From positions 1,922,001 through 1,986,000 of the forward strand of contig NZ_CP080998.1 of NCBI RefSeq assembly GCF_019645835.1: a stretch of DNA of 64,000 bases. The letters run 5' to 3'. The DNA is from Mycolicibacterium holsaticum DSM 44478 = JCM 12374 (GTDB lineage: Bacteria > Actinomycetota > Actinomycetes > Mycobacteriales > Mycobacteriaceae). Position 1 is the first letter of the stretch. Every line of letters starts with the position of its first letter. Below are positions 40,324 to 64,000 of this stretch, piece by piece. The notes below the pieces were generated by a model. It was not told the origin of the DNA. It saw nothing but the letters and a program-made list of their open reading frames with translations, and did not search any database. A program made the translations under genes and the position numbers.

Positions 40324-41174
40324 TCGTGGTCACGGACTCGTCGTCGCGGCTGCACCCCGATGAGCTCAAACAGTGGCAGATCCGGCAGGTGCCGCTGCAC
40401 GTGCTGGTCGACGAGGTCGATCTGCGCGACGGCGTCGACGAGGTGCCCTACGACATCCACGAGCTGCCGCGCGCCACCACCGCCGGAGCCACGCCGGCCG
40501 AGCTCGCCGAGGCTTATCGGCACGCGCTGCACGACAGCGGCGGCGACGGCGTTGTGGCCGTGCATCTTTCGGCCGCGCTGTCCAGCTCGTACAGCGCGGC
40601 GGTGCAGGCCGCCCGGGAGTTCGGCCCTGCGGTACGGGTGGTCAACTCGCGATCGGTCGCGATGGGGGTGGGCTTCGTCGCGTTGAGCGCCGCCCGCGCC
40701 GCGGCGTCAGGTGCGGACCTCGACACGGTGGAAGGCGTCGCCCGGTCTGCCGTCGACCGCGGCCGGGTGTTCGTCGTCGTGCATCGCCTCGACAACCTGC
40801 GGCGCAGCGGACGCATCCGGACCGCGGCGTCGTGGCTGGGCACCGCGCTGGCGGTCAAGCCGCTGCTGTGCCTGGACGTCGACGGACGGTTGGTGCTCGA
40901 TCAGCGCATCCGCACGGTCGGCAAGGCCCACGCGGCGATGGTGGATCGGGTGGTGGACGTCGTCGGCGACCATCAAGCCGCGGTCGCGGTGCACCACGTC
41001 GACAACCATGACGGCGCCGACGCGATCGGCGCGGAGTTGACCACGCGGCTGCCGCAGATCGGGTCGCTCACGGTGTCGGACATGGGGCCGGTGTTGTCGG
41101 TGCACGTCGGCGCCGGGGCCGTGGGCGTCGTCGTGCAGATCACCGATCCCGCTACACCGCCGCACGACCGGTGA
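40314..41174 (+). CDS. DegV-family fatty-acid-binding protein
   Basis: DegV proteins bind fatty acids; in firmicutes the homolog FakB presents them to a kinase. It has 286 aa from GTG 40314 ([15 protein letters not shown]). VTDSSS near residue 6, [12 protein letters not shown] and [14 protein letters not shown] are the usual lipid-head contacts. It follows octT with a 10-bp overlap, so a role in handling the octanoyl or other acyl group is possible. Last gene of the conserved block; its end overlaps the convergent oxidoreductase by 23 bp. Confidence 0.92.
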
Positions 41175-42201
41175 CCGGCGGCAGGTCGGCCAGCGTGACG
41201 ATGCCCGGCGCGGCGGCGACGACGGCCGGCACCGCGTTGGTCACCGGCAGCGCGGTGTAGATCATGCCCAGGCCCATGAAGCCGGGTTCGGTCCAGTCCC
41301 TGGGCGCCAGGCAGTGCAGCACGGTGCGCATGTTGGGCAGGCCGAAGACCTGGATGACGTGGCCGTGTTCCAGCGGCTTCGGCGGTGTGACGTGGTTGCC
41401 CATGATCCAGTTGAAGCCGACGCTGACGACGTTCTTGTCGCCCACCCAGCCGCGGTGATAGCCCATGACCCCGGCGACCGTGCCCTTCGGGATCTGCATG
41501 AAGCCCAGGTCGCTGTCGCCGGTCGCGGCGGTGAACGTCACGTCGAACGTCATCTTGTCGAGTTTGGCGCCGATGGCGTCGGCCATCATCGCCGCGGATT
41601 CGGCGAAGACCTCGCTTTCGCGCCGCACGCTTTCGGCCAGGCCCGGGGTATCGGGATCCTGCGAAAAGCCCATCGCCACTTGGGTTCCCGCTGACTCATA
41701 GGTCGAGCAGTCCACCGATTCGGTGATACGGATCTCGTCGACGCGTTCGCAGGCGCCGGACAGCACCATGCCCACCATGTTGGACATGCCCGGATGCGCA
41801 CCGCTGCCGAAGATGGTGGAATTGCCCGTCTCGCAGGCCTTCCGGATGCGATCGAGGTCCTCGGGCGTCTGCTTGCCGCCGGTGATCCATGCCGCGCTGG
41901 AACAGACGTTGACGCCGGTTTCCAGCAGCCGGACCAGCTCGTCGATGTCGGGCCACAGCGGGTTGTAGCAGCACGCGTCGGGTTTCAGAGCCAGCAGCGC
42001 GTCGACGTCGTTGGTGGCGGTGACCCCGGTGGGTTCGGGCCAGCCCGCCAGGTCCGCGGCGTCGACGCCGACCTTGTCGGCGCCGTGGGCGTAGACCCCG
42101 ACGAGCTCCATGTCGTCGCGGCCGAGGATGGCGTGCAGTGACCGCCGGCCGATGTTGCCGGTGGTCCATTGGATGACGCGAAGAGGTCGGGCGGTGTTCA
42201 T
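41152..42201 (-). CDS. NAD(P)-binding DapB/diaminopentanoate-dehydrogenase-like oxidoreductase
   Basis: A 349-aa protein with an N-terminal Rossmann motif (VIQWTTGNIGRRSLHAIL, residues 9-26). This is the dihydrodipicolinate-reductase-like group that is abundant near lipid and steroid genes in mycobacteria. FGSGAHPGMSN and GYHRGWVGDKN are group signatures. Substrate unknown. It is last of four same-strand genes (KstD-like, thioesterase, SDR, this) and marks the start of the catabolic block. Confidence 0.85.
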   Translation of the reverse strand: MNTARPLRVIQWTTGNIGRRSLHAILGRDDMELVGVYAHGADKVGVDAADLAGWPEPTGVTATNDVDALLALKPDACCYNPLWPDIDELVRLLETGVNVCSSAAWITGGKQTPEDLDRIRKACETGNSTIFGSGAHPGMSNMVGMVLSGACERVDEIRITESVDCSTYESAGTQVAMGFSQDPDTPGLAESVRRESEVFAESAAMMADAIGAKLDKMTFDVTFTAATGDSDLGFMQIPKGTVAGVMGYHRGWVGDKNVVSVGFNWIMGNHVTPPKPLEHGHVIQVFGLPNMRTVLHCLAPRDWTEPGFMGLGMIYTALPVTNAVPAVVAAAPGIVTLADLPPVTGRAAV

Positions 42202-42211
42202 CTGCAGGAGG

Positions 42212-43018
42212 TTACATGTGGGTGCCGCCGTCGACGCGGACCTCGGTGCCGGTCACGAAGTAGGCGTCGGTGCTGCCGAGCATGGCGACCACCGCGGCGA
42301 CGGCGTCAGGTTTGGCGAACATCGCCCCGTCGTCGACGGGCAACACCGGCTGCACCTTGCCGAACAGGGTGAAGTCGGTGTCGGCGGGCAGTCCTGGCCC
42401 GACGCTCTGCTTGGACTCGCCCGTGCCGTCGGTCATGCCCGACGAAATCGAGCCCGGCTGCACCGAATTGAACCGGATACCTTCCTTGGCGAACTCCAGG
42501 GCCAACGCGTGCGTCATCGCCTGGATGCCGCCCTTGGACGCCGCGTAGGCCGACATGTACGGGTGGGCGAACGCCGCCGACGTCGAACTGAAGTTCACCA
42601 CAGCGGGTTTGGTGCCCTCGCGCAGCGCGGGGATGGCCTCGCGGGTCACCAGGAAGGTGCCCACCAGGTTGATCCGCAACACCTGTTCGAAGTCGGTGAG
42701 CGTGGTGTCCAGGAAATGCGCCGAGCGCAGCACCCCGGCCGCGTTGACGAGCGTGTCCAGCGCTCCCAGCGCCCTGACCGCGTCGGCGACGCCGGCCTGC
42801 ACCGACGGTTCGCTGCCGATGTCCATGACCACGGTGGTGAGCCGGTCACCGTGCGGTTCGGCCTTGGCGACGGTGTCCTTCAACCCGGCCTCGCTGATGT
42901 CGGCGGCGACCACGCGCCCGCCCTCGTCGAGGATGCGAAGCACGGTCGCCTGCCCGATGCCCGAGCCACCGCCGGTGATCAGAACGCGACGGTCGGTGTA
43001 TCGCTGAAGAGTTGCCAT
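42212..43018 (-). CDS. Short-chain dehydrogenase/reductase (SDR 1)
   Basis: Classical SDR, 268 aa from ATG 43018 (MATLQRYTDRRVLITGG). Cofactor loop TGGGSGIG (residues 15-22), NAAG, catalytic Tyr-Lys in YAASKGG, and a C-terminal VTGTEVRVDGGTH typical of NAD-dependent hydroxy-ketone enzymes. An Asp after strand 2 (AADISEAG) suggests NAD rather than NADP. It is 10 bp ahead of the DapB-like gene, so one transcript. Confidence 0.9.
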   Translation of the reverse strand: MATLQRYTDRRVLITGGGSGIGQATVLRILDEGGRVVAADISEAGLKDTVAKAEPHGDRLTTVVMDIGSEPSVQAGVADAVRALGALDTLVNAAGVLRSAHFLDTTLTDFEQVLRINLVGTFLVTREAIPALREGTKPAVVNFSSTSAAFAHPYMSAYAASKGGIQAMTHALALEFAKEGIRFNSVQPGSISSGMTDGTGESKQSVGPGLPADTDFTLFGKVQPVLPVDDGAMFAKPDAVAAVVAMLGSTDAYFVTGTEVRVDGGTHM

Positions 43019-43077: not shown

Positions 43078-43647
43078 TCAGCGGCGTTTGGGCCGGATGA
43101 AAACGCCGGACGCTTCCACGGTGGCGCCCTCGGCGTCGGCGATGTTTCCCACGACGTAGGTTTTGGCGCCCTCGACGCGGTCGACGCGGGCCTGGGCGCG
43201 CAGCCGGCCCAGCCGGGTCGGGCGGACGTAGCGCACGGTGATGGTCCCGGTGACGGCGGGTTTTCCCGGTTGGTGGGCGGGCGCGGCCAGGACGTGGTCG
43301 AGGATCAGCGCGCAGACCCCGCCGTGCACGTGTCCCGCGGGCCCTTCGTAGGCGGCGCCGAGTTCGAACTCCGTGTGCACGCTGCCGTCGGCTTCGTGGT
43401 GGATCACCAGCGGGGGAGCGACGGCGTTGCGGGCCCCGATCAACACGTTGCCCAGCGCCGTCGGGCGGCCGTCGGCGGTGGCGCGCACCCCGTACGAACC
43501 GGGCATCAACTCCGCCGACAACAGGTCGACGGCCCGGTCGACGTGCGCCCTGGCCTCCGCGGCGACGTTGCCGCCCACTTCGCTGCGGATGGTGGCGTCG
43601 ATGAGGCGGCGCACCGACTGCGTCAGCGATGCGAAGTCGTCGGTCAT
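43078..43647 (-). CDS. PaaI-type hotdog-fold thioesterase
   Basis: A 189-aa acyl-CoA thioesterase. The hotdog core has GPAGHVHGGVCALILDHVLA with the HGG loop near residue 107, and TGTITVRYVRPTRLG. It would free CoA from an intermediate or rescue a stalled one. Its ATG overlaps the stop of the KstD-like flavoprotein (43644-43647), so they are made together. Confidence 0.88.
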   Translation of the reverse strand: MTDDFASLTQSVRRLIDATIRSEVGGNVAAEARAHVDRAVDLLSAELMPGSYGVRATADGRPTALGNVLIGARNAVAPPLVIHHEADGSVHTEFELGAAYEGPAGHVHGGVCALILDHVLAAPAHQPGKPAVTGTITVRYVRPTRLGRLRAQARVDRVEGAKTYVVGNIADAEGATVEASGVFIRPKRR

Positions 43648-45191: not shown

Positions 45192-45196
45192 GGGGG

Positions 45197-45222
45197 GGTC
45201 ACCTGCGAAGGACGTGGTGACC
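45197..45222. promoter_or_regulatory. Inverted repeat between KstD-like A and padR
   Basis: ggtcacc / ggtgacc with a 12-base spacer, 6 bp ahead of the GTG start of the flavoprotein and about 170 bp ahead of the PadR gene. It is a candidate operator for PadR, whose family binds such dyads, but the arms are short. Confidence 0.35.
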
Positions 45223-45394
45223 GGGTGGATAGTGCCGACGCTCGCGCGCCCGCCGTCGAGTCGTCCGCAGCCAAATCCGCCTCCATCGCCTGGTGATGAC
45301 CACAGTCTGGCATCGCCCGGTTACCCGGCCACGCGGTGTCCCGGTGAGCGGCAGCTAACAATTTCACCAGCACCGGCATTGATAGCCTGGTTCG

Positions 45395-46063
45395 GTGGAA
45401 CCGACTTCGGCGATGCCGAACCTGACAGCGACCGCATGGGCGCTGCTCGGCATGCTGTCGTACGACACGGAGCTGTCCGGTTACGACATCCGCAAATGGA
45501 TCAGCTGGAGTATGCGGTTCTTCTACGGCAGCCCGGCCTACAGCCAGATCTACTCGGAGCTCAAAAAGCTCGAAGAGCTCGGATTCGTCACCTCGCGGGT
45601 GGAAAACAGCGCGGGCACGCGTAACCGGCGACTGTACAAGATCACCGAATCCGGCATGCAGGCCGTCACCCAGTGGGCGAACGAGGCCCCGCTGGACCCG
45701 CCGGTGCTCAAACACAGCGCGATTCTGCGGGTGACGTTGGGCCATCTGACCAGCCCCGCCCGGCTCAAGGAGATCCTGCAGGAGCACCTGGCCTGGGTGG
45801 AGCAGATGCACAACGAGGCGGCCAAGGATGCGCGCTGGGCCGACGTCGAACCGGCGTGGGCATTCGCCCGCGTCGGATTGCAGTGGGCAGAAAGGCATTA
45901 CGCCGCAGAGCGCGAACTGACCGTGCAGATGATCAAGGATCTCGACGAGGCCCAAGCGGTCTTCGCCAAGGCCACCGGGGGAGCAGAAACCGGAATCCCT
46001 TGGCCCAAACCGGAATACTGGTATGAGATCGAGAAGAAGGCCGACGCGGAAGATTCCGACTAG
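45395..46063 (+). CDS. PadR-family transcriptional regulator
   Basis: A 222-aa repressor-type protein. The winged helix covers residues 10-90 (TAWALLGMLSYDTELSGYDI, then LKKLEELGFVTSR and RRLYKITESG), followed by a long helical dimerisation domain (LKEILQEHLAWVEQMH). GTG start at 45395. It is the only dedicated regulator in the 23-kb catabolic block and lies between the two KstD-like genes, so it probably controls them. The inducer would be a pathway compound. Its stop shares CTAG with the convergent flavoprotein B. Confidence 0.9.
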   Translation: MEPTSAMPNLTATAWALLGMLSYDTELSGYDIRKWISWSMRFFYGSPAYSQIYSELKKLEELGFVTSRVENSAGTRNRRLYKITESGMQAVTQWANEAPLDPPVLKHSAILRVTLGHLTSPARLKEILQEHLAWVEQMHNEAAKDARWADVEPAWAFARVGLQWAERHYAAERELTVQMIKDLDEAQAVFAKATGGAETGIPWPKPEYWYEIEKKADAEDSD

Positions 46064-49306: not shown

Positions 49307-50107
49307 ATGACGGATCTGACGAGATATGGGCCGTGGGCGGTTATCGCGGGCGGATCAGAAGGCGTGGGAGCGGAGTTCGCCCTGCTGCTCGCGCGCGCCG
49401 GGATCAACCTCGTCCTGCTGGCGCGAAAACCCGGCCCGCTCGAGGCCACCGCCGCGGCGTGCCGCGAACTCGGCGTCGAAGTCCGAACCCTGTCAGTGGA
49501 TTTGGTGAGCGAGACGGCTGTGGGGCGTGTCGTGGAGGCCACCGATGGCCTCGAGGTGGGGCTGCTGATCTACAACGCGGGCGCCAACACGTGCAGCGAG
49601 AACTTCCTCGACGGTGACCTCGCGGACTTTCAGCGCGTCATCGACTTGAACATAGGCACCATGCTCGCGCTGGTCCAGCATTTCGGCCGGCCGATGCGGG
49701 ACCGTCGCCGCGGCGGGGTTCTACTCGTCGGGTCGATGGTGGGCTACCTGGGCTCGATGCGCCACACCATCTACGGCGGGGTGAAGGCGTTCGGGCGGAT
49801 CTTCGCCGAGAGTCTGTGGCTGGAACTTCGGGATTTCGACGTGCACGTGCTGGAACTGGTGCTCGGGGTGACACGCACTCCGGCGATGGCCCGCGTCGGG
49901 CTGAACTTCGACGTACCGGGAATGCGCGTCGCCGAGCCGGCGGACGTGGCCCGTGAGGGGCTGCAGAACCTGCCCAACGGTCCGGTGTACGTCGCCGGCG
50001 GCAACGCCCAGGACGTCGAGCAACGCAACCACCCGGACCGGGCGAAGGTGGTGCTCGGGTCGCACCGGGCGATACAAAAGCTCATCGGCGCGGAAGGCAT
50101 CGACTAG
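49307..50107 (+). CDS. Short-chain dehydrogenase/reductase (SDR 2)
   Basis: A 266-aa SDR from ATG 49307 (MTDLTRYGPWAVIAGG). The cofactor loop is AGGSEGVGAEFA, with NAGAN, and the catalytic Tyr-Lys is in YGGVKAFGR. It resembles the subgroup of 17-beta-hydroxysteroid-type or acyl-ketone reductases. An Arg after strand 2 (LLARKPG) suggests NADP. It follows the Rieske partner by 14 bp and precedes an F420-type enzyme by 10 bp, so it belongs to a plus-strand operon running to 52290. Confidence 0.88.
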   Translation: MTDLTRYGPWAVIAGGSEGVGAEFALLLARAGINLVLLARKPGPLEATAAACRELGVEVRTLSVDLVSETAVGRVVEATDGLEVGLLIYNAGANTCSENFLDGDLADFQRVIDLNIGTMLALVQHFGRPMRDRRRGGVLLVGSMVGYLGSMRHTIYGGVKAFGRIFAESLWLELRDFDVHVLELVLGVTRTPAMARVGLNFDVPGMRVAEPADVAREGLQNLPNGPVYVAGGNAQDVEQRNHPDRAKVVLGSHRAIQKLIGAEGID

Positions 50108-50978: not shown

Positions 50979-51467
50979 GTGACCGACGACCGACTGGCAG
51001 AACTCGAAGCGCGACTGCACCGCGTCGAGGACGAACGCGCGATCGAGCGGATGATCGCCTCGTACGGCCCGCTGGTCGACGCGGGCGAGGCCGATGCGGC
51101 CGCCGCGCTGTGGGCGGTCGAGGGCGCCTACGACGTCGAGGGCTGGCCGATGCACAGCCGTGCCGAGGTTGCCGCCATGGTGGCTTCCGACGCTCACCAG
51201 GGCCTGATCGGGCGCGGCTGCGCGCACTTCCTCGGCCCTGCGGTCGCCACCGTGCACGGCGATGAGGCGATCGCGGTGTGCGAGTCGCTGGTGGTGACCC
51301 GGCGCGGCGACGGCTACGTGGTGTGGCGCGCGGCCGCGAACCACTTCCGGCTCAACCGGATCGAGGGGCGCTGGCAGATCGTCGACCGCACCACCCGCAC
51401 CCTCGACGGGCGCGCCGAATCACGCGCGTTGTTGGCGGACGGTGTTGCGGGGCGCCCCGCGCCGTAG
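50979..51467 (+). CDS. SnoaL-like (NTF2-fold) protein 1
   Basis: A 162-aa protein of the nuclear-transport-factor-2/SnoaL fold. The N-terminal helix LEARLHRVEDERAIERMIASY is the common start of this family, and HFLGPAVATV lines the pocket. Members are ketosteroid-isomerase-like hydratases, isomerases or binding proteins. GTG start, 9 bp after the LLM gene, with RBS gagga. Confidence 0.83.
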   Translation: MTDDRLAELEARLHRVEDERAIERMIASYGPLVDAGEADAAAALWAVEGAYDVEGWPMHSRAEVAAMVASDAHQGLIGRGCAHFLGPAVATVHGDEAIAVCESLVVTRRGDGYVVWRAAANHFRLNRIEGRWQIVDRTTRTLDGRAESRALLADGVAGRPAP

Positions 51468-53452: not shown

Positions 53453-54397
53453 CTAGAAGGGGAGCGGGGTGGCGAATTTGGCGCGCAGCAGCGCACCGAC
53501 CTCGGCCACCGCCAACCGGCCCCTGGCCGTGGCATCCGAACGCATCAAAAACCCGTGGTAAATGCCCGGATAGCGGGTCAGGGTCGTCTGCACCCCGGCG
53601 TCACGCAGCCGCGCCGCGTACCGCTCGCCCCAGTCGCGGATCGGGTCATAGGCGGCGGTGACGACGATGGCCGGCGGCAGCCCGGACAGGTCGGTTGCCA
53701 TTGCGGGGAACCGGTATTCGTCCGGCGCCGTGGTAACCCCCCGGTCGGCGAGTTCGTGCATGTAGTCGATGTCCGCACGGCGCAGCATCGGCGCGTCGGG
53801 CATGCTGCGGATCGACTCACACGTCATATTGCGGTCCAGGCCCGGGTACAGCAGCACCTGACAGCAGATCGACGGGCCGCCGCGATCGCGCGCGGCCAGC
53901 GCGACGGCCGCGGCCAGCGAGCCGCCCGCGCTGTCACCGATGACGGCCAGGCGGCGGGCGTCGACCCGAAGCGCGTCGGCGTTGGCGGCGACGTACGAGG
54001 TGGCCGCACAGGCGTCCTCGAACTGCGCCGGCGCGGGCGCCTCGGGCGCCAGCCGGTACTCGACGGACACCACCGTGGCATCGCTCACCGCGGCCAGTGT
54101 CCGGGCGAGCGGTTCGAACGAGTGGTTGGAGCCCAATACCATTCCGCCGCCGTGGAAGTAGACCAGAACGGGGCAGGGGTTGACGCGCGTCGGCCGATAG
54201 ATCCGGATCGGGACCGATCCGCCAGGGCCGGAGATGACGCGGTCCTCGATGTCGGCCATGTGCGGCATGTCGTCGGGGTGCGGCGCCGATTCGAGCGTCC
54301 GGCGGACTTCGGCCAGACCCCGCTCACGCATCGGTGCGACGGTCCCGAACGCCGCGACGCGCGCGGCGGCATCCGGGTCCAGTCGGTACTGCATCAC
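53453..54397 (-). CDS. Alpha/beta hydrolase, hormone-sensitive-lipase (Lip) family
   Basis: An esterase of 314 aa. The oxyanion HGGG motif is at residues 82-85. The nucleophile is Ser156 in GDSAGG, with Asp251 (AYDPIRDWG) and His281 (YPGIYHGF). No signal peptide. Members split short acyl esters or lactones; with the Baeyer-Villiger enzyme at 60911 it could open the ester or lactone formed there. It shares strand with the run 54465-60807 and probably ends that operon. Confidence 0.88.
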   Translation of the reverse strand: MMQYRLDPDAAARVAAFGTVAPMRERGLAEVRRTLESAPHPDDMPHMADIEDRVISGPGGSVPIRIYRPTRVNPCPVLVYFHGGGMVLGSNHSFEPLARTLAAVSDATVVSVEYRLAPEAPAPAQFEDACAATSYVAANADALRVDARRLAVIGDSAGGSLAAAVALAARDRGGPSICCQVLLYPGLDRNMTCESIRSMPDAPMLRRADIDYMHELADRGVTTAPDEYRFPAMATDLSGLPPAIVVTAAYDPIRDWGERYAARLRDAGVQTTLTRYPGIYHGFLMRSDATARGRLAVAEVGALLRAKFATPLPF

Positions 54398-54464: not shown

Positions 54465-55316
54465 TCACTGCCGAGCGGGGTCGAATCGCTGCTTGGTGCG
54501 CAGGGCCGGTGCGCGGCGCTCAGCCAGGACCGCGGCCCGTTCGGCCATCGCGTTGCCGACGTACTCGGGCTGGGTCAGCAGGTAGAACTCGCCGGCCGCC
54601 GACTGATCGAACATCACGCGTGCGGCCTGCAGCGGATCCATCGCCGAGTTCCTGATGTCCAACATCGCTGCCCGGTGTGATTCGGCGGCCGCTACGTCGC
54701 CGTCGTCGACCCCGCCGGCCGCCTCGAAGATGTTCGACCTGACCGCGCCGGGGAGCACCGCCTGCACGTGGATCCGGTCGGCGTGTCCGGCCAGTTCCAC
54801 TTCGAGGCGAAGGCACTCTGTCAGCGCCAGCACCGCGTGCTTGCTCATGATGTAGGGCGTCTGCAACGGCATCGCGACGACCCCGCCGATCGACGACAGG
54901 TTCCACACCCACGCCGGGGTGTCGGCGGCCACCATGCGGGGCAAAAATGCGCGGATCCCGTAGAACACCCCGCTGACGTTGATGTCGACCAGCCGGTCCC
55001 AGTTGGCCACGGGGATGTCCCACAGATACCCGAACTGTTCGACGCCCGCGTTGTTGACCAGCAGCCGTACCGGGCCGATATCGGAGTAGACCTGCGCGGC
55101 AACAGCTTCGAGCGCTTCCGGGTCGCGCACGTCGCACACCACGTCCGTCGAGCCGGGCAGTTCCTCGCGCAGCGCGGCGATGGCGTCGGCGTCGACGTCG
55201 ACCAACACCACGGTCATGCCCAGCCCGGCGGCGTGCCGGGCCAGCCCGGCACCGATTCCGTTGCCGGCGCCGGTGATGACCGCGACACCGCCGCCGAATG
55301 TTGCCCGTGCGTCCAC
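54465..55316 (-). CDS. Short-chain dehydrogenase/reductase (SDR 4)
   Basis: A 283-aa SDR. TGAGNGIGAGLARHA is the cofactor loop, VDVDADAI (an Asp after strand 2, NAD preference) follows, then NNAG and YIMSKHAVLALTE with the catalytic Tyr-Lys. The C-terminal 40 residues are longer than usual. It starts 4 bp downstream of the SnoaL-like gene stop, so they are co-expressed. Confidence 0.88.
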   Translation of the reverse strand: MDARATFGGGVAVITGAGNGIGAGLARHAAGLGMTVVLVDVDADAIAALREELPGSTDVVCDVRDPEALEAVAAQVYSDIGPVRLLVNNAGVEQFGYLWDIPVANWDRLVDINVSGVFYGIRAFLPRMVAADTPAWVWNLSSIGGVVAMPLQTPYIMSKHAVLALTECLRLEVELAGHADRIHVQAVLPGAVRSNIFEAAGGVDDGDVAAAESHRAAMLDIRNSAMDPLQAARVMFDQSAAGEFYLLTQPEYVGNAMAERAAVLAERRAPALRTKQRFDPARQ

Positions 55317-55320: not shown

Positions 55321-55812
55321 TTACGAACCGGCCGAAGCCGTCGCGGCGGTCTTGGCGGCGTGCTCGGCGAACGGGATCGAGTCCTCGGCGTCGAGGATCA
55401 CCGTCATCGACGTGAAGACCAGACCGCCGTCGGCGCGTCGGATGCCCACGTCGACGACCCCGCTGGACACGTCGAACGGGACGTTGTTGGTCACCTGGTT
55501 GACATACAGGTAGAAGCGGGCGGTGGTCACCGCGCCGTCCACGCCGGTGCGGAAGATGTTGGTCGCATGGTGACGCAGCGGGTAGGGGTTCTCGTTGCGG
55601 TGCTGGGTCAGCCACGCCAATGTGTCGTCTTTACCGTGCAGTTCGGCGGCCAGCAGGTCCTCGAACGGGCAGTTGCCCGAGTCGGATCGGCTCAGGTACT
55701 CCATCTCGTCGCCGAGCCGGGCGCCGAGTTCGGCGAAATGGCCCTGGTCGTAGTGGTACCAGAAGGCAGCGATGAACTCCTGGACCTCGGACAGCGTGAT
55801 GTCGTTACTCAT
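55321..55812 (-). CDS. SnoaL-like (NTF2-fold) protein 2
   Basis: A 163-aa protein from ATG 55812 (MSNDITLSEVQEFIAAFW). The fold marker is the initial helix followed by WYHYDQGHFAELGARL, then HHATNIF and the strand-rich end. It is of the scytalone-dehydratase/ketosteroid-isomerase superfamily by pattern; the reaction is unknown. It is different in sequence from SnoaL-like protein 1, so it is not a local copy. Confidence 0.83.
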   Translation of the reverse strand: MSNDITLSEVQEFIAAFWYHYDQGHFAELGARLGDEMEYLSRSDSGNCPFEDLLAAELHGKDDTLAWLTQHRNENPYPLRHHATNIFRTGVDGAVTTARFYLYVNQVTNNVPFDVSSGVVDVGIRRADGGLVFTSMTVILDAEDSIPFAEHAAKTAATASAGS

Positions 55813-55888: not shown

Positions 55889-56899
55889 TCAATCCGTGAT
55901 CAGGCGCCACACGTCGGCGCCCGCGGCCAGCGTCGCGTCGGTGACCTGCTCGTCCCAGTGCCGCACCGACCCGAACTCAGACCGCCATGCCAGTGCGGCG
56001 CGGGTGAACTCATGTAACCGGTGTTCGATGGTGGTGCCGATGGCGCCGTGCACCTGGTGCGCGTTTCGCACCACCACCGACGCGGCGTGGCCGACGCAGG
56101 AGCGGGCGACCGCGATGCGGAAGGGCAGGTTCGGCGCCGTCCAGTCGCTGCCGACCGCCGCGGTCAGTGCGGATTCGGTCGCCGCACGGGCCAGTGCCGC
56201 TTCTGCGGTCAGGTCGGCGATCGCGTGCTGCACCGCCTGGAAGCGCGACAACGTCCGGCCGAACTGGACGCGCGAGCCAGCGTGCTCGATCGAGCGCAGC
56301 GCGGTCTCGTCGAGTACCGCGCACACCTGAATCGCCCGCACCACAGCGGCCTTCATCTGCAACTGCGCGACGAGGTCGGCCCCGATGGGTACTCCGTCGA
56401 GCGCGGTGACATCGGCGGTGACCGTGTCGCGCGGTTCGCCGATCAGGTTGACGCCCGCCGCGATGTCCAGCGCTGCGCGCTCGACGTCCGCGACACGGTG
56501 TTCGTCACCGTCGTGCCACACCACCACCACCCGGTCGCTGCCAGCGGCCCAGGGGACCCCCCGCGCCGTCGCGTCGTCGTCGAGCAGGCACACCGTCCGC
56601 ACCGCGGCATCACCGGGCATCCCGTTCGCGTCCAGCAGCCAACAGGCCAGCAGATCATGCTCGGCCAACGGGATTCGCACCGCATTGCGGGCGGCCGCGG
56701 TGAGCAGCTCGGCCGCCTCGAACCAGCCGGCCCCGCTGCCGCCGGACTCCTCGGCGCCGGTCAACCGGACCAGCCCGAGTTCGTCGAGACGGCGCCACAA
56801 CGCCGGGTCGCGAGCGATCGCCGCCGCCGGCGGGCGGGCTTCGCGGTACTCGGCGAAGACGGCGCCCATCATCTCGGTCAGTGCGGGGTCGACGGTCAC
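55889..56899 (-). CDS. Acyl-CoA dehydrogenase, short partner subunit
   Basis: A 336-aa acyl-CoA-dehydrogenase-like protein, shorter than the usual 380-400. The N-terminal region (MMGAVFAEYREARPP) and C-terminal helical bundle (GRTLSRFQAVQHAIADL; QVHGAIGTTIEHRLHEF) are kept while the middle beta-domain is eroded. In mycobacterial steroid pathways such paired genes form alpha2beta2 enzymes in which one subunit lacks the catalytic base. The ATGA-type overlap with the next gene (56896-56899) fits that. Confidence 0.88.
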   Translation of the reverse strand: MTVDPALTEMMGAVFAEYREARPPAAAIARDPALWRRLDELGLVRLTGAEESGGSGAGWFEAAELLTAAARNAVRIPLAEHDLLACWLLDANGMPGDAAVRTVCLLDDDATARGVPWAAGSDRVVVVWHDGDEHRVADVERAALDIAAGVNLIGEPRDTVTADVTALDGVPIGADLVAQLQMKAAVVRAIQVCAVLDETALRSIEHAGSRVQFGRTLSRFQAVQHAIADLTAEAALARAATESALTAAVGSDWTAPNLPFRIAVARSCVGHAASVVVRNAHQVHGAIGTTIEHRLHEFTRAALAWRSEFGSVRHWDEQVTDATLAAGADVWRLITD

Positions 56900-58050
56900 C
56901 GCAGCCCCAATCCGCGGGCGATCACACCGCGCAGCACCTCGTTGGTCCCGCCGCGCAGCGTGAAGCCGGGCCGCTGGTCGACCGCGTTCGAAACCAGTTG
57001 GGCGAACGCGGGATCGGTTGTGCCGTCGGTGATGGTGTCGGCGAAATCGGCGATGTCGCCCTCGGTGGTGGTGCCCAGGACCTTGACGACCGCCGCGGGG
57101 ACGTCGGCCGGTTCACGTCGCTCCAGCGCACCGGCGACGGCGGTGGACATCTGGTGCAGGGCGGCGATGCGGGCCGTCAGCCGGCCCACATCGGCATCGC
57201 GGGAAACCTGCCGCGCGGCCATCCGCTCGCTGCATGCGGTCAACAGGACGAACGTCGACAGAAACCGCTCGGGCCCGCTGCGCTCGAAGGCCAGTTCGGA
57301 CGTCACCTGTCGCCAGCCCTGGCCGATCTCGCCGAACACCATGTCGTCCGGCACGAACGCCCCGTCGAGGATCACCTCGTTGAAGTGGTGCGCGCCGTTC
57401 ATCGAGACGACGGGACGGATGTCCACTCCCGGTCCGCGCAGATCGACGATGAACTGGCTGAGCCCGGCGTGCCGGTTCTGCGGGTCGACGGGTGCGGTGC
57501 GGGCCAGCGCGATGAACGCATGCGCACGGTGCGCACCCGAGGTCCACACCTTGGTGCCCGACAGCGCCCAACCGCCGTCGACCTGCACCGCCTTGGTGCG
57601 CACGCTGGCCAGATCCGAGCCCGAATCCGGTTCGCTCATACCGATGCCGAAGTAGCACTCGCCCCGGGTGATCCGCGCGAGGAACTTCTTTTTCTGCGCT
57701 TCCGTGCCGTACTTGAGCAGCGACGGCACGATCTGGCGGTCGGCGATCCAATGGGCCGCGACCGGTGCGCCCGCGGCGAGGAGTTCCTCGGTCACGGCGA
57801 ACCGTTCGATGAACGAGCGGCCGTGCCCGCCGTACTCGACGGGCACCGTCATCCCTAGATAGCCCTGTGCGGCAAGTGCTCTCGTGAAATCCTCGTCCCA
57901 TCCCGTCAGCCAGGCGTCGACCGCAGGGGTGTAGGCGCCCGCGGCGAGCTGCTCGGCGAGGAACTCGCGGACCTCGGCGCGCAGCGCCGCTGTCGAGGCG
58001 GCGTCGACAGCCGCGGGTGGGACCAGCCGGGGCACCGTCTGCGTGCTCAT
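56896..58050 (-). CDS. Acyl-CoA dehydrogenase, full-length subunit
   Basis: A 384-aa enzyme that introduces a double bond alpha-beta to a CoA thioester using FAD. YFGIGMSEPDSGSDLAS and LSGTKVWTSGAHRAHAF are the FAD and substrate segments of the family; LRGGTNEVLRGVIARGLG closes the C-terminus. It pairs with the short subunit directly downstream, overlapping by 4 bp. The probable role is side-chain or ring beta-oxidation after activation by the acyl-CoA synthetase at 59218. Confidence 0.92.
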   Translation of the reverse strand: MSTQTVPRLVPPAAVDAASTAALRAEVREFLAEQLAAGAYTPAVDAWLTGWDEDFTRALAAQGYLGMTVPVEYGGHGRSFIERFAVTEELLAAGAPVAAHWIADRQIVPSLLKYGTEAQKKKFLARITRGECYFGIGMSEPDSGSDLASVRTKAVQVDGGWALSGTKVWTSGAHRAHAFIALARTAPVDPQNRHAGLSQFIVDLRGPGVDIRPVVSMNGAHHFNEVILDGAFVPDDMVFGEIGQGWRQVTSELAFERSGPERFLSTFVLLTACSERMAARQVSRDADVGRLTARIAALHQMSTAVAGALERREPADVPAAVVKVLGTTTEGDIADFADTITDGTTDPAFAQLVSNAVDQRPGFTLRGGTNEVLRGVIARGLGLR

Positions 58051-58096: not shown

Positions 58097-59203
58097 TCAC
58101 AAGACGATGCTGGCGCGCACGTCGCTTCTGCGCTCGGCAGCGGCGAAGGCTTCGTTGATGTCGTCGAGCGGGTACTGCGCGGCGGCGAGGCGGTGCAGCG
58201 GCAGACTGTCGCGGTGCTGTTCGAGGAACGTCAGCGCCCGGGACAGCACGGCGGGGTCATACAGCGACACCCCGACCATCGTCTTGTTGGCGAAGACGAA
58301 CCGCGACGGGTCGAACTCGAACGTCTTGCCGATGTTGATGTTGCCGATTTCGACGTAACGACCGAACTGGCCCAGCATCTTGAGGCCTTCGTCGATCGCG
58401 GCGGGGTGACCGACCACCTCGACCACCACGTCGGCGCCATGCCCGCCGGTCAGGGTCTTGACGATTTTCGTCCGGTCCTTCACCGTGGCGGCCTCGTTGA
58501 TGTCGATCACCGCGTCGGCGCCGAAAGCCGTTGCCAACTCCAGCCGCTCGGGTACACCGTCGATGGCGATGACGCGAGCCGCACCGCGCGCCTTGGCCAC
58601 CGCGACGGCGTACAGCCCCAGCGCGCCAGCGCCCTGCACCACGACGATCTCGCCGAGTTGCTGATCGACGCGTTCGAGGCCGTAGATCACCTGGGACAGT
58701 GCACAGTTGGCGCCCGAAGCGATGTCGTCGGTCACGTTGTCGGGCACTTGGTAGACGACCGCGCCCGCGGGCAGCAGGAAGTAATCGCCGTAGCCTCCGA
58801 CGAAGTAGGGCGGTTCGTCGGCGCGGCCGAGCATCGCCATCTTCAGGTTCAGGCATGCGTTGCGCCGACCGGCCAGGCAGTGACGGCACCGGTGGCAGCT
58901 GAAGAAGTACGGGAACACCACCCGGCTGCCCTTCTCGAGGCGCACACCGTTGGAGTCCGCGCTGACGCCGTCCCCGAGTGCCTCGACCGCGCCGACCATC
59001 TCGTGGCCGAGCACGGTGGGGAGTTGTCCGCCCAGCCCACCGGTGGCGAAGGTGCCGTGCCAGGCGTGCACGTCCGAGCCGCAGATGTTCGTGCGGCTCA
59101 CCTTGATCAGGATCTCGCCGGGTTTCACCTCGGGCAGGCTCACCGTGTCGATCTCGAACGGCTTTCCTGGGCCATCGAATCGTGCGATCCGTCCTGTGAA
59201 CAC
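58097..59203 (-). CDS. Zinc-dependent alcohol dehydrogenase (MDR family)
   Basis: A 368-aa medium-chain dehydrogenase. Catalytic zinc ligands lie in NICGSDVHAWHG and GHEMVG; the structural zinc cysteines are in CHRCRHCLAGRRNAC near residues 103-117. The Rossmann motif is VVQGAGALGLYAVAVAKA. The Asp in AIDGVPERL suggests NAD. It probably oxidises an alcohol intermediate. It lies 14 bp after the acyl-CoA synthetase gene, so both are in the same operon. Confidence 0.9.
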   Translation of the reverse strand: MFTGRIARFDGPGKPFEIDTVSLPEVKPGEILIKVSRTNICGSDVHAWHGTFATGGLGGQLPTVLGHEMVGAVEALGDGVSADSNGVRLEKGSRVVFPYFFSCHRCRHCLAGRRNACLNLKMAMLGRADEPPYFVGGYGDYFLLPAGAVVYQVPDNVTDDIASGANCALSQVIYGLERVDQQLGEIVVVQGAGALGLYAVAVAKARGAARVIAIDGVPERLELATAFGADAVIDINEAATVKDRTKIVKTLTGGHGADVVVEVVGHPAAIDEGLKMLGQFGRYVEIGNINIGKTFEFDPSRFVFANKTMVGVSLYDPAVLSRALTFLEQHRDSLPLHRLAAAQYPLDDINEAFAAAERRSDVRASIVL

Positions 59204-59217: not shown

Positions 59218-60807
59218 TCAGCGGCTGGGCGCTTCGTTGGCGAAGCGTTCGCGCAGTTGACGTTTGAGCAGTTTGCCGCTCGGATTCTTCGGCAGCGCGT
59301 CGACAAAGAAGACATGCTTGGGGGTCTTGAACCCGGCGAGGTGCTCGCGGCAGTGCGCGATCACGTCGTCCTCGGTCAGGGCACAGCCGGCGCGGGGGAC
59401 GACCGCCGCGACCACGGCCTCGACCCAGGTCGGGTGCGGCAGCCCGAACACGGCGACTTCCTCGATTCCGCTGTGCCGGTACATGACCTCCTCGACCTCG
59501 CGGCTGGCGACGTTCTCCCCGCCGGTTTTGATCATGTCCTTCTTGCGGTCGACCACGTGCAGCAGCCCGTGCTCGTCGTAGTAGCCCAGATCGCCGGAAT
59601 GAAACCAGCCGCCGCGGAACGCTTCTGCGGTCTTCTGCGGGTCGTCGAGGTAGCCGAGCATCAGATGCGGGCTGCGATGGGCGATCTCACCCAGTACGCC
59701 GGCGGGAACCGGGTTTTCGGCTTCGTCGAGGATCGTGGTCTCCACGTTGACCACCGGCCGTCCCGCCGCGCCGGCGTGGGTGTCCTGTTCGTCGGGTCCC
59801 AGCGCGGAGGCCAACGGCGCCAACTCGGTCTGGCCGTAGAAGTTCCACAGCCGCAGCCCCGGCAGCCGCTCGCGGATCTCGGCGAGGATCTCCGTCGGCA
59901 TGGCAGAGGCGCCGTAATAACCCTTGCCCAGGCTGGACAGGTCCACCTCGTCGAAGATCGGCGAGCGCAGCAGCGAGATCCACACCGTCGGCGGGGCGAA
60001 GTAGTTGGTGACCCGGTGGCGCTCGATGGCCCGCAGCACCAGGTCCGGGTCGGGGCCGGGCAGGATGATGCTGGTGGCACCCAGATAGATGTCGGTGGCC
60101 AGAAAATTGTCCAGCTGCGCGCAGTGGTACAGCGGCAGCGAATGGATCTCGACGTCGTCGCCGGTCATCGAGCCCGCGATGATCGTGCTGACGTACTGCC
60201 AGATCAGGCTGCGGCTGGAGTGCATCACCCCTTTGGGACGCGACTCGGTGCCGCTGGTGTACATCAGCCGCAGCAGTTGGTCGTCGTCGATGTGCGGTGT
60301 CGGTGCCGGCGAGCTGGTGGTCAGCCACTGCGCGAAGTCGTCCCAGCCCGGCGGTGCCGGCTGGCCTGGCCGGGTCAGCGCCGCCCTGGTCCTCACGGCA
60401 CCCCCTGACCGCATGGCCTGCTCGGCGGTCGATGTCAGTTGGTCCTCGACGATGAACCCGGTGGCGTTGCAGTGGCCGAGGATGTAGGCGATCTCCTCGG
60501 CGGTGAGCATGAAGTTGATCGGGACCAGTACCACCCCGGCGCGGGCCGTCGCGAACGCCAGCACCGCGTACTGCCAGCAGTTGTGCGACAACAGAGCCAC
60601 CCGGTCGCCGGGCCGAAATCCATTGTCGTGCAACGCGGCGGCCGCCCTGTCGACGACGCTGTCGAACTCGGCGTACGTCAGCTGCAGGTCACCGTCGATG
60701 ATCGCGATCTTGTCGGGCTGTCTACGGGCCGAGCGCCGCGGAATGTCGCCGACGCTATGGCTGCGCGCCCGTGCGATCACGGCGTCGAGATCCTGCAACC
60801 CTTGCAT
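59218..60807 (-). CDS. Acyl-CoA synthetase (FadD-type, AMP-forming)
   Basis: Activates a carboxylic acid to its CoA thioester; 529 aa from ATG 60807 (MQGLQDLDAVIARA). The open frame extends to 61206 but that part is antisense to the monooxygenase gene. The AMP-binding P-loop is YTSGTESRPKG near residue 190. FYGQTE, GWFHSGDLGYYDEHG and the hinge DRKKDMIKTGGENV are present. The C-terminal catalytic Lys is in PKNPSGKLLKRQL. First gene of the minus-strand operon that runs to about 53453. Confidence 0.93.
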   Translation of the reverse strand: MQGLQDLDAVIARARSHSVGDIPRRSARRQPDKIAIIDGDLQLTYAEFDSVVDRAAAALHDNGFRPGDRVALLSHNCWQYAVLAFATARAGVVLVPINFMLTAEEIAYILGHCNATGFIVEDQLTSTAEQAMRSGGAVRTRAALTRPGQPAPPGWDDFAQWLTTSSPAPTPHIDDDQLLRLMYTSGTESRPKGVMHSSRSLIWQYVSTIIAGSMTGDDVEIHSLPLYHCAQLDNFLATDIYLGATSIILPGPDPDLVLRAIERHRVTNYFAPPTVWISLLRSPIFDEVDLSSLGKGYYGASAMPTEILAEIRERLPGLRLWNFYGQTELAPLASALGPDEQDTHAGAAGRPVVNVETTILDEAENPVPAGVLGEIAHRSPHLMLGYLDDPQKTAEAFRGGWFHSGDLGYYDEHGLLHVVDRKKDMIKTGGENVASREVEEVMYRHSGIEEVAVFGLPHPTWVEAVVAAVVPRAGCALTEDDVIAHCREHLAGFKTPKHVFFVDALPKNPSGKLLKRQLRERFANEAPSR

Positions 60808-60910: not shown

Positions 60911-62833
60911 GTGACCACTGATGCGCAAGCCACGACGCCCCGGGTGCCGGTCGACGCTGCCGAACTGCGGGCACACCTGCGCCAGGCCGACCCCGGCGTC
61001 CTGGTGGCAGTGCTGGCGCAGTTGACGGGTGACCCAGCGGTCGCCGACCGGTTCGGGCCCAAGATCAGCCACGTTCCCGATCCGCCCGAGCGGGCCGGCG
61101 TCACCGACCCCGACACGATGGAGGAACTGGTAGCCGCGATCGTCGACGGTCTGGACGCTCCGCGGGCCCCGGATGCACTGGCGGCCGACGACCCGGCGTT
61201 GTTCACCCGGGTGCTGCCCGTGGCGCTCGGCTCCGACGTCGACGACGAGTTCGTAGCGCTGCTGCTCGAACAGGGCGGCTTTCAGCTTTCCCAGCCGACG
61301 TTGCCGCGCACGGTGCCGATTCCGGAATCGACGACGGTCGCCATCGTCGGCGCGGGTCTGGCCGGCATCATCACCGCGTTGTCTGCCGCCGACGCCGGGG
61401 TGAACTACCAGATCTTCGATCGCAACGACGAAGTCGGCGGGACGTGGCTGACCACGACCTACCCGGGCATCGGGGTCGACACCCCCTCCGCGTACTACTC
61501 GTTGTCGCGGGACGTGAACCCCGACTGGACGAGCTACTACCCGCAGGGCGGGGAATACCAGGCGTATCTGGTGTCGCTGGCCGACAAGTACGGGCTTCGC
61601 GAGCACACCCGGTTCGGCACCGAGGTGCAGGCGTTGTGGTGGGACGAGGACCGCCACCAGTGGCAGATCCATTCGGTGGACCGTGACGGCAAACGTGAGG
61701 TGAGTTTCGCGCGGGTGGTGGTCACCGCGGCCGGCTATCTGAACCGTCCGCGCTGGCCGGACGTGCCCGGTCGAGACTCCTTCGCGGGCACCAGCATCCA
61801 CTCGGCGCTGTGGGATCCGTCGGTGGATCTGGCCGGTAAGCGGGTAGCGGTGATCGGGGCGGGGTGCACGGCCGTGCAGATCGTCGACGCCTGCGTCGAG
61901 GACGTCGAGCACCTGACCGTGTTCCAACGGCAACCGCACTGGGTGGCACCGCGCAAGCGCCTGTCCGATGATGTGCCCGAGCACCGGCGCTTCCTGGGCC
62001 GGCACCTGCCGTACTACGCCAACTGGCACCGGCTGAAGTCCTATTGGGGTACCGCGGACAACAACTACCCGGTCATCCTGCGCGACCCGGAATGGGCCGA
62101 GAAGAACCTGTCCATCTCCCCGGCCAACGACGTGCTGCTGCAGATGTGCCGCGACTACATCAACCGGACCTTCGGCGAGGGAACGGAACTGGCGAAGAAG
62201 GTCACACCGGACTTCGCGCCGTACGGTAAGCGGATCGTGCGCGATCCCGGTGGCTACTACGCGGCGTTGACCCGCGAACACGTCGACGTGGAGGCCGCCG
62301 AACCGGCCGAGGTGAACCCGAAAGGCATTGTCACCCAGGATGGTCGGCAGATCGACCTGGACGTGATCATCTACGCCACCGGCTATCACCTCGACTTCCT
62401 GTCGACCCTCGACATCCGTGGCCGCGATGGACGCACGCTGCAACAGGAGTGGGGCGACAGCCCGCGGGCGTACCGCGGTGGCACCGTGCCCGGGTTCCCG
62501 AACCTGTTCATCAACTCCGCGCCGAACTACAGTCCCGGGCACGGGGCGGGCGCGAACTTCTCGATGGAGGTGATGGCGCACTTCATCGTCGAGTGCCTGC
62601 AGCTGATGGCGTTGCGCGGCGCCACCACCATGGAGGTGACCCGACAGGCCTACGAGGAGTACGTGGCCGCGATCGACGAGGCGATGTCGCAGACGGTGTG
62701 GTGTCATACCCCTAACGCGCACACCTACTACCGATCGGGTTCTGGCCGTGTGGTGGTGTCGACACCGTACCGGTTGGTCGACGTGTGGCAGCAGCACCGC
62801 GCGCCGGTCGAAGACCACTTCACGCTGCGATGA
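60911..62833 (+). CDS. Baeyer-Villiger monooxygenase, HAPMO type
   Basis: Flavoprotein that inserts oxygen next to a ketone, making an ester or lactone. It has 640 aa from GTG 60911. Two Rossmann motifs, VGAGLAG (146-152) and IGAGCTAVQ, flank the exact Baeyer-Villiger fingerprint FxGxxxHxxxW (FAGTSIHSALW, 291-301). The extra 140 residues at the N-terminus and total length match 4-hydroxyacetophenone monooxygenase. The stop overlaps the SDR 5 start by ATGA. It is divergent from the acyl-CoA synthetase (103-bp gap), which suggests shared control. Confidence 0.93.
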   Translation: MTTDAQATTPRVPVDAAELRAHLRQADPGVLVAVLAQLTGDPAVADRFGPKISHVPDPPERAGVTDPDTMEELVAAIVDGLDAPRAPDALAADDPALFTRVLPVALGSDVDDEFVALLLEQGGFQLSQPTLPRTVPIPESTTVAIVGAGLAGIITALSAADAGVNYQIFDRNDEVGGTWLTTTYPGIGVDTPSAYYSLSRDVNPDWTSYYPQGGEYQAYLVSLADKYGLREHTRFGTEVQALWWDEDRHQWQIHSVDRDGKREVSFARVVVTAAGYLNRPRWPDVPGRDSFAGTSIHSALWDPSVDLAGKRVAVIGAGCTAVQIVDACVEDVEHLTVFQRQPHWVAPRKRLSDDVPEHRRFLGRHLPYYANWHRLKSYWGTADNNYPVILRDPEWAEKNLSISPANDVLLQMCRDYINRTFGEGTELAKKVTPDFAPYGKRIVRDPGGYYAALTREHVDVEAAEPAEVNPKGIVTQDGRQIDLDVIIYATGYHLDFLSTLDIRGRDGRTLQQEWGDSPRAYRGGTVPGFPNLFINSAPNYSPGHGAGANFSMEVMAHFIVECLQLMALRGATTMEVTRQAYEEYVAAIDEAMSQTVWCHTPNAHTYYRSGSGRVVVSTPYRLVDVWQQHRAPVEDHFTLR

Positions 62834-63717
62834 GCGGACTGCTTGCCGGTCGAACGGCGCTGGTCACAGGCAGTAGCCGGGGGATCGGGCGCGCTGTGGC
62901 GCAACGCCTTTCGGCTGAAGGTGCGACGGTTGTGGTGACCGCGCGCTCGTATCGGCCGTCGGCGTCGGTACGGGGCGCGAGGGCTGCGGAACTGCCGGGC
63001 ACCATCGGTGAGACCGTCGAGCTGATCGAGTCGGCCGGCGGTACGGCGATCGGCATCGCCGCCGACCTAGAAGATCCACAGCAGCGCGCCGGCCTGGTGG
63101 ACCAGGTGCTCGAGCGGACCGGACGCATCGACATCCTGGTCAACAACGCGGGTTTCGCCGATTACGCGCTGGTCGAAGACATGGACATGGAGACGTTCGA
63201 CCGGACGGTCGAGCACTACCTGCGGGCGCCGTTCGTGCTGACCCGAGCGGCGATCCCGCACATGCGACAGCAGGGTGCGGGCTGGATCGTCAACATCGGC
63301 TCGGTCACCGGCGTCGCGCCCGTGCGGCCCTACCGCGAGTACAACAAGACCTCCGGGGACGTCGTGTACGCGTCGATGAAGGCTGCGCTGCACCGGTTCA
63401 CCCAGGGGGTGGCGGCCGAACTGCTCGACGCCAACATCGCGGTCAACTGCGTCGGACCCTCGACGGCGATCCGCACACCCGGCGCCGCATCGCTGATCCC
63501 CGAGACATTTCCGACCGAACCGGTGGAGTACCTGGCCGAGACCGTGCTCGCGATGTGCCACCTGCCCGCCGCCGAGCGCACCGGGTTGGTGGCGTTCAGC
63601 CTGCACTACCCGTGGTCGCAGGGCTTGGCGGTGCGCAGCCTCGACGGGGCAACGGTGCTGCCGCCCCGGGAACCGCCGGCCGCCGCGAACCCCAACATCC
63701 TGCCCGCGGGCATGTAA
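62830..63717 (+). CDS. Short-chain dehydrogenase/reductase (SDR 5)
   Basis: A 295-aa SDR co-translated with the Baeyer-Villiger enzyme (4-bp overlap). TGSSRGIGRAVAQRL is the cofactor loop, NNAG follows, then YASMKAALHRFTQG with the catalytic Tyr-Lys. A 12-residue insertion after strand 2 (SYRPSASVRGARA) is typical of a mycobacterial SDR group. It probably makes the ketone on which the partner enzyme acts, oxidising an alcohol. Confidence 0.9.
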   Translation: MSGLLAGRTALVTGSSRGIGRAVAQRLSAEGATVVVTARSYRPSASVRGARAAELPGTIGETVELIESAGGTAIGIAADLEDPQQRAGLVDQVLERTGRIDILVNNAGFADYALVEDMDMETFDRTVEHYLRAPFVLTRAAIPHMRQQGAGWIVNIGSVTGVAPVRPYREYNKTSGDVVYASMKAALHRFTQGVAAELLDANIAVNCVGPSTAIRTPGAASLIPETFPTEPVEYLAETVLAMCHLPAAERTGLVAFSLHYPWSQGLAVRSLDGATVLPPREPPAAANPNILPAGM

Positions 63718-63722
63718 TTGGC

Positions 63723-63771
63723 GATTTCGGCGCGCGCACGCCCCGTGAGGGGGCGTCAGCGCGCCGAAATC
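63723..63771. terminator. Large perfect bidirectional hairpin
   Basis: Outer 13-bp stem gatttcggcgcgc (63723-63735) with 63759-63771, then inner 7-bp stem acgcccc/ggggcgt with loop gtgag. The outer stem starts with AT pairs, so it reads with a short T-run on both strands. It sits between convergent genes and ends on the stop codon of the last gene. Confidence 0.8.
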
Positions 63772-64000
63772 ACTCGGAGGGGCAGAAGCTGTGGCAGATG
63801 CGGTCGCGCACGATGGCCTCGGGGCACTCCGGATCGAACCAGCGGTCCACGTAGGCCCAGTGAATCGGGTGCATGAGGTACGGGCCCATCAGGCCGTCGA
63901 CGTCGGTGAAGTGCTGCTCGAACACATGGGTCCACGGCGAGGCACCGACCGCCGACTCGACGGGGCTCAGCTGCCAGTCGACGATCGAGCGCACGTAGCG
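63770..64000 (-). CDS. Unknown protein, C-terminal part (5' end outside window)
   Basis: Open frame running off the right edge; the last 76 residues are seen (RYVRSIVDWQLSPVES to ICHSFCPSE). It contains several aromatic and acidic residues (HWAYVDRWFDPECPE) and two cysteines near the end. I do not recognise the family. An EthD-like fold is possible but unsupported. Convergent with SDR 5. Confidence 0.6.
   Translation of the reverse strand, partial: RYVRSIVDWQLSPVESAVGASPWTHVFEQHFTDVDGLMGPYLMHPIHWAYVDRWFDPECPEAIVRDRICHSFCPSE

Follow-up and report, generated by a model that had tools for sequence, protein, structure and literature searches.

Among described steroid-degradation systems, the C-19+ cluster of Mycobacterium smegmatis reportedly holds kshB2, hsaA2, hsaC2 and hsaD2 and is said, in work of Fernandez-Cabezon, Galan and Garcia from 2018, to be repressed by the PadR protein MSMEG_2868, whose gene we take to be the PadR gene of the cluster. 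In PMC5270728, MSMEG_2867 (522 aa), MSMEG_2869 (558 aa) and MSMEG_2870 (386 aa) are given as kstD, kstD and kshA, not induced by cholesterol, and MSMEG_2893 as the KshB of M. smegmatis. Of two further papers, one has the C-19+ genes acting on 'yet unknown steroid compounds' (PMC6593523), and the other describes them as tightly regulated, unresponsive to phytosterol and C19 steroids, and with no established natural activation (PMC10672877, 2023). Here we analyse a 64,000-nucleotide stretch of Mycolicibacterium holsaticum DSM 44478 = JCM 12374 (the window; C1:1922001-1986000 of a single-contig 5.62-Mb genome), in which a block of catabolic genes starting at 41152 had been predicted to encode an uncharacterised pathway for a steroid- or terpenoid-like cyclic ketone. 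With a probability of roughly 70%, we read this block as the left part of a ~47-kb C-19+-type second set of 3-ketosteroid-degradation genes, which would take up and degrade C21/C19 steroids under predicted PadR/IclR control.

Pfam and NCBIfam scans of the window and of the 34 kb that follow it in the genome, numbered here by carrying the window numbering past 64000 (extended coordinates; L009:15624 = extended 78624), place the beginning of the island at 41152 and find related genes up to ~88 kb, so that the end at 64000 given in the original prediction was the window edge only. To the right of 64000 lie genes for a Dabb protein, an old yellow enzyme, a second HSL esterase (HSL2), an IclR regulator, a third KstD-like flavoprotein (KstD_c), HsaC-, HsaA- and HsaD-like proteins, a second Baeyer-Villiger monooxygenase (BVMO), an alcohol dehydrogenase, a short-chain dehydrogenase/reductase (SDR), an alkylsulfatase-type metallo-beta-lactamase-fold protein, a sulfotransferase, and the two MlaE permeases and mce genes of a yrbE/mce operon. 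Within 41152-64000 every gene class of the original prediction was recovered, with exactly five SDRs; its list lacked a DapB/DAP-DH-like reductase, a thioesterase, an F420-type luciferase-like oxidoreductase (LLM), two SnoaL-like proteins and a conserved 358-aa protein (Table 1). The block is probably not of an unknown kind, since the KstD-PadR-KstD-KshA order is much like that of MSMEG_2867-2870 in the published C-19+ cluster, and the separate HsaA/C/D set is a further likeness.

When aligned to KstD1 (4C3X), KstD_a conserves the four columns Tyr119, Tyr318, Tyr487 and Gly491, which we take to be the KstD catalytic residues, and so does KstD_b, whose closest named relative, from the 80 best-matching of 157 related stretches, belongs to Mycolicibacterium elephantis DSM 44368 (88%). 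Against solved structures, the KshA-like protein matches chain B of 4QDF best, presumably KshA5 (628 bits, and 511 bits for 2ZYL), and KstD_c, outside the window, scores 744 bits against the Δ4-(5α)-ketosteroid dehydrogenase 4AT0. The HsaA-, HsaC- and HsaD-like proteins reach 377, 373 and 286 bits, under the canonical-model cut-offs of 450, 450 and 400; because of these scores, and because another HsaC-like match (47%) is located far off at C1:628694, we regard them as a second set. The genome holds five KshA_C genes, four of them outside the island, with the best-scoring of these four at C1:684441.

The second BVMO (extended 71703-73331) carries the BVMO fingerprint and aligns with residues 13-547 of the 549-residue chain of the steroid monooxygenase STMO (4AOS) at 842 bits, phenylacetone monooxygenase reaching 652 bits; STMO is thus the closest solved BVMO, and by these family criteria the protein is an STMO homologue. 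A linked steroid monooxygenase would give the C-19+ genes a concrete substrate class, and we predict that the substrates are C21 20-ketosteroids (progesterone-like), which would lose their side chain by Baeyer-Villiger oxidation and the action of an esterase. The original prediction had seen in this pair of activities a second way to break a ring or remove an acyl group; that idea is best read as side-chain removal, with the STMO homologue outside the window as the enzyme. BVMO1, the BVMO of the window, which we take to be HAPMO-type from its N-terminal extension, is more distant from every solved BVMO listed (207 bits to a cyclohexanone monooxygenase as the best, 178 bits to STMO).

A quite different explanation is that steroid-like enzymes were recruited for a non-steroid polycyclic or monocyclic ketone (a terpenoid or aryl ketone), with BVMO1 as the key enzyme. 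The best solved matches of BVMO1 are cyclohexanone monooxygenases, FadD, the acyl-CoA dehydrogenase pair and the HSL esterase HSL1 are encoded near it, and the score of the HsaC-like protein is above the cut-off of a biphenyl-diol dioxygenase model. We consider this very improbable, given the catalytic columns kept in two KstD-like proteins, the nearly whole-chain matches of the Δ4-(5α)-dehydrogenase and the STMO homologue to steroid enzymes, and the HsaA- and HsaD-like genes in the same block. The terpenoid option of the original prediction is left unsupported by the families found beyond the window, and a terpenoid or aryl-ketone substrate was set aside on the matches to STMO, KstD1 and 4AT0.

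The scan of relatives for scattering of these genes found them linked. A PadR homologue (E<=1e-20) is present in 252 of the 396 genomes of the genus, and 60 of the 252 were hand-picked, mostly for high PadR identity, with the best match per genome counted. Within 60 kb of PadR, STMO is found in 54 of the 60, HsaC2 in 53 and both in 50. For the surroundings of KstD_b we used 80 named loci, counting best matches of >=50% identity within 10 kb as lower bounds, as some loci are cut by contig ends: KshA is there in at least 78, PadR in at least 75, and the 358-aa protein, HSL1 and SDR 4 in at least 65 each. STMO is also found in the wider family, where 98 of 251 genomes, from 17 of 31 genera, have it. 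Among 17 loci of other genera, hand-picked from 86 non-Mycobacterium genomes with an STMO match, KshA, HsaA, HsaC, IclR and PadR stand beside STMO in eight; counting the 17 loci together, PadR occurs in 10, KstD_a in 7 and HSL2 in 6. The linkage of STMO, HsaC2 and PadR in 50 of 60 genomes, and of STMO with KshA, HsaA and HsaC in 8 of 17 loci of other genera, is new here; the literature searched gave no description of an STMO homologue in a C-19+ cluster, though the main 2018 C-19+ paper may have one.

The place and completeness of the island vary. Two relatives (G341 and G039) have a related cluster at the same housekeeping place, a third (G065) has nearly the full set including mce at a different place, and the close relative G208 keeps the left part up to the acyl-CoA dehydrogenases, followed by open reading frames preceding comEC. 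Since G208 keeps the left part alone, the parts of the island can separate, and one might suppose two adjacent modules for different substrates, a left one flanked by PadR (KstD_b, KshA, the dioxygenase-like 358-aa protein, HSL1) and a right one flanked by IclR (STMO, HsaA/C/D, KstD_c, mce), a view with which the differing motifs upstream of the two regulator genes would also agree. We find this unlikely, as 50 of the 60 selected genomes keep both parts at no more than 60 kb from PadR, and PadR, IclR, KshA and STMO share one 20-kb stretch in 8 of the 17 loci of other genera.

A number of observations weigh against a C-19+-type set for C21 steroids. The assignment, in itself likely, rests on gene order, sizes and family content. 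The HsaC-like protein passes the biphenyl-2,3-diol dioxygenase model (378 bits, cut-off 366), none of the ten PF00970 matches in the genome, searched for a KshB-type reductase domain, falls in the island, and the yrbE/mce operon lies beyond HsaD, at the end opposite KstD_a. Only 18 of the 60 selected genomes have KstD_a within 60 kb of PadR, 3 of 61 genomes lack an STMO match at E<=1e-180, 6 of the 17 loci of other genera carry STMO but none of the other genes tested, and the G208 stretch has no FadD, BVMO1, STMO, HsaA/C/D or mce. As for the literature, an RNA-seq study has cholesterol raising MSMEG_2867/2869 somewhat and inducing the mce block MSMEG_2854-2865, and a review equates kstD2 with MSMEG_2869 and regards the C-19+ cluster as apparently necessary for C-19 steroids, in detail for efficient use of androstenedione (AD), androstadienedione (ADD) and 9-hydroxy-androstenedione (9OH-AD) in M. 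smegmatis. According to PMC12239570, a personal communication has M. smegmatis using progesterone once an 'ADD+' cluster is activated, and this use is tied to a cluster with MSMEG_4862, far from MSMEG_2867-2870, for which reason this communication, the one outside support of the progesterone reading, backs it only loosely. The unexpected end at which mce lies, and a literature that speaks against a C21-only, cholesterol-independent view, lowered our confidence in both the C-19+ and the C21 readings.

A rival view, in keeping with the name C-19+, is that C19 steroids alone (androstenedione, testosterone, 5α-androstanes) are the substrates of the island, with its BVMOs acting on the 17-ketone to give a D-ring lactone, or otherwise. 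The review statement on AD, ADD and 9OH-AD fits this, and KstD, KshA and HsaA/C/D do not need a C17 side chain. Yet the BVMO past the window is nearest to STMO among solved BVMOs and is linked to ring genes in 8 of the 17 loci of other genera, and the failure of phytosterol and C19 steroids to activate the C-19+ genes, as stated in PMC10672877, suits an inducer of another class; we hold a C19-only island to be doubtful. To return to the C-19+-type set for C21/C19 steroids, its most far-reaching version would make the C-19+-type clusters of mycobacteria complete pathways for C21 steroids (progesterone and pregnanes, 5α-reduced ones included), comprising STMO, the ring set, Mce and hydroxylation by a 2-oxoglutarate dioxygenase, with a 20-ketosteroid as the PadR inducer; this we put forward tentatively, with the odds somewhat against it.

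In the pathway that we propose, the Mce transporter would import the steroid, and the STMO homologue would turn a 20-ketosteroid into a 17-acetate by inserting oxygen between C17 and C20, after which an HSL esterase would release the 17-hydroxyl for oxidation by an SDR. The ring-A double bonds would come from the Δ4-(5α)-dehydrogenase together with both KstD-like enzymes, hydroxylation of C9 by KshA would open ring B, and HsaA2, HsaC2 and HsaD2 would hydroxylate, cleave and hydrolyse ring A, leaving FadD and the acyl-CoA dehydrogenase pair to process an acid released later or from a side chain. In the absence of a steroid ligand, PadR probably keeps the block repressed. Such a pathway would be of interest for clearing progestogens from the environment and for designing strains for steroid production, for which a review advises deletion of the C-19+ cluster.

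As to regulation, we found no exact match to the KstR box in the window (0.17 expected by chance) and none to the KstR2 box with <=1 mismatch (0.30 expected). The absence noted in the original prediction is thereby confirmed, and with expectations this low it says little; the wider claim, of a likely cyclic-ketone (3-ketosteroid) pathway with PadR and apart from the KstR regulon, is supported. Control of the block by KstR was dropped on the missing box in the window; to the right of the window, a KstR scan of L009 gave one KstR-type match, inside a coding gene (L009:14535; at least one match in 9 of 200 shuffles). A pattern search of 33 aligned padR upstream regions recovered the TCCCG-type block in 31. 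A similar site in the KstD_b/KshA spacer (47811-47824) recurs in 7 of 80 loci, compared with 54 of 2000 random windows, a count that gives weak support to an operator shared by padR and KstD_b/KshA. In the printed loci (11 of the 80 and our own), the divergent KstD_b/KshA spacer shows, by eye, TCCC...GGGA-like arms. Scanning for the PadR half-site ATGT-N-ACAT gave four scattered matches. Upstream of iclR (extended 67805; L009:4805-4825) lies a perfect 21-base inverted repeat, CATATGACTAATAGTCATATG, which is exact in G298 and has a related counterpart in the same position in each of the four further compared genomes with the gene; the padR and iclR upstream motifs differ. The padR matches of ten genomes (G315, G138, G349, G180, G114, G300, G102, G221, G338 and G043) span one TGA, which may reflect a different start only.

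The 358-aa protein is predicted to fold like the Fe(II)/2-oxoglutarate dioxygenases, with a double-stranded beta-helix, and its H160, D162 and H242, a candidate HxD...H iron triad, are invariant in 59 aligned sequences picked from 121 (our own protein and 120 listed of 735 homologues). A sequence search with it against solved structures gave nothing significant. The family, 735 homologues without a Pfam or NCBIfam model, is common to mycobacteria and Proteobacteria (Sphingomonadales) at 72-74% identity, and would be a new enzyme lead.

The yrbE pair beside HsaD (extended 78624-80398; L009:15624-17398) is nearly copied in a second mce operon ~0.2 Mb away (C1:1788001-1806000), with 95-100% DNA identity per 200-base block (78901-80500) and an identical run of 1261 bases; the mce genes that follow are ~60-88% identical per block between the two operons. 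Six of seven further two-copy genomes likewise have 95-100% over five core 250-base yrbE blocks and G306 has 80-89%, with the mce genes lower. The pattern looks like gene conversion of the permease alongside diverging substrate-binding proteins. Within 65 kb of PadR, yrbE is found in 34 of the 60 genomes, in 8 of the 34 only through a more distant copy (65-68%), a count in which distant copies were partly entered and those far from PadR left out. In a 2007 survey (PMC1810536), M. smegmatis mce5 is MSMEG_2855-2862 and its two mce5 copies are regarded as recent duplications.

Table 1. Features of the island within the window, with positions in window numbering.
Feature	Position	Strand	Evidence and remarks
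DapB/DAP_DH_C-like reductase	41152..42201	-	PF19328 47.6 bits; island left edge, adjoins degV
SDR 1	42212..43018	-	PF00106 168 bits; start position chosen
Hotdog thioesterase-like protein	43078..43647	-	PF03061 39.5 bits
KstD_a, KstD1-like Δ1-dehydrogenase, 515 aa	43644..45191	-	4C3X KstD1 394 bits, residues 7-509
Conserved TCCCG-n-CAGyGG-type block upstream of padR, possible PadR site	45339..45352	+	pattern
PadR-family regulator	45395..46063	+	PF03551 42.7 bits
KstD_b, putative 3-ketosteroid Δ1-dehydrogenase, 568 aa	46060..47766	-	NF009479 1064 bits (cut-off 793); 7P18 362 bits
KshA-like Rieske oxygenase, 377 aa	47868..49001	+	PF19298 309 bits; Rieske and 2-His motifs
SDR 2	49307..50107	+	PF00106 104.5 bits; 6/80 named loci
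Luciferase-like F420-type oxidoreductase (LLM)	50118..50969	+	TIGR03619 240 bits (cut-off 167); 5/80 named loci
SnoaL-like protein 1	50979..51467	+	PF13577 82 bits; 7/80 named loci
SDR 3	51478..52290	+	PF00106 89.5 bits
358-aa conserved protein, predicted Fe(II)/2-oxoglutarate-dioxygenase fold	52295..53371	-	without Pfam/NCBIfam match
HSL-type esterase 1 (HSL1)	53453..54394	-	PF07859 216 bits; HGGG and GDSAG motifs
SDR 4	54465..55316	-	PF00106 136 bits
SnoaL-like protein 2	55321..55812	-	PF13577 29 bits
Acyl-CoA dehydrogenase, small partner	55889..56899	-	PF00441 52 bits
Acyl-CoA dehydrogenase, large partner	56896..58050	-	PF02771 81 bits, PF02770 66 bits
Zn alcohol dehydrogenase	58097..59203	-	PF00107 103 bits
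FadD-type acyl-CoA synthetase	59218..60807	-	PF00501 287 bits; NF006182 823 bits (cut-off 663)
BVMO1, with N-terminal extension	~60911..62833	+	PF00743 60 bits; fingerprint FAGTSIHSALW
SDR 5	62830..63717	+	PF00106 142 bits
Dabb-domain protein, crosses window end, runs to 64384	63770..64000	-	PF07876 48 bits (L009:770-1384)

The island is inserted between degV and comEC, with GDSL and DegV genes on its left flank and a competence (ComEC-type) gene on its right, beyond which the next genes are, we presume from the sequence, holA and rpsT. The DapB/DAP_DH_C-like reductase at its left edge is found at 82-92% in three of six compared genomes. SDR 2, the F420-type LLM and SnoaL-like protein 1 (49307-51467) form an insert that few relatives share (5-7 of the 80 related loci, some truncated at contig ends). 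Elsewhere in the island the alkylsulfatase-type gene adjoins the sulfotransferase gene (L009:12124-14615), a pair that is perhaps for sulfated substrates.

Compared with the C-19+ cluster of M. smegmatis, the island has the same KstD-regulator-KstD-KshA order at 43644-49001, with KstD_a, KstD_b and KshA matching MSMEG_2867, MSMEG_2869 and MSMEG_2870 in position and near them in size (515/568/377 aa here versus 522/558/386 aa), and a second HsaA, HsaC and HsaD, as reported for M. smegmatis, with a nearby mce operon as well. It differs in having no linked KshB-type reductase, where M. smegmatis has MSMEG_2893, in its mce genes, which lie at the HsaD end whereas the mce5 numbering puts the operon at the KstD end, and in its degV-comEC insertion and SDR 2-LLM-SnoaL insert; in G298 the arrangement is unlike the MSMEG numbering, with a KstD_a match far from PadR and the nearest yrbE 52 kb away. 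With the KstR/KstR2 cholesterol regulon the island shares the KstD, KshA, HsaA, HsaC and HsaD families of ring A/B chemistry, and is unlike it in the lack of a KstR/KstR2 box in the window and in the other HsaC-like and KshA_C copies elsewhere in the genome.

The pdc cluster of Caenibius tardaugens also has a BVMO (and an LLM), which there gives testosterone acetate from progesterone, but it is a 4.6-kb cluster of four genes (two enzymes and two regulators). The pdc BVMO is 30.4% identical to the STMO of Rhodococcus rhodochrous (PMC12239570); the island BVMO gives 842 bits to STMO over 535 residues, and the island LLM passes an F420-type model. The island BVMO is like the R. rhodochrous STMO itself in its near whole-chain match to 4AOS and its BVMO fingerprint, and unlike it in that here the gene, with a predicted STMO activity, sits inside a ring-degradation island.

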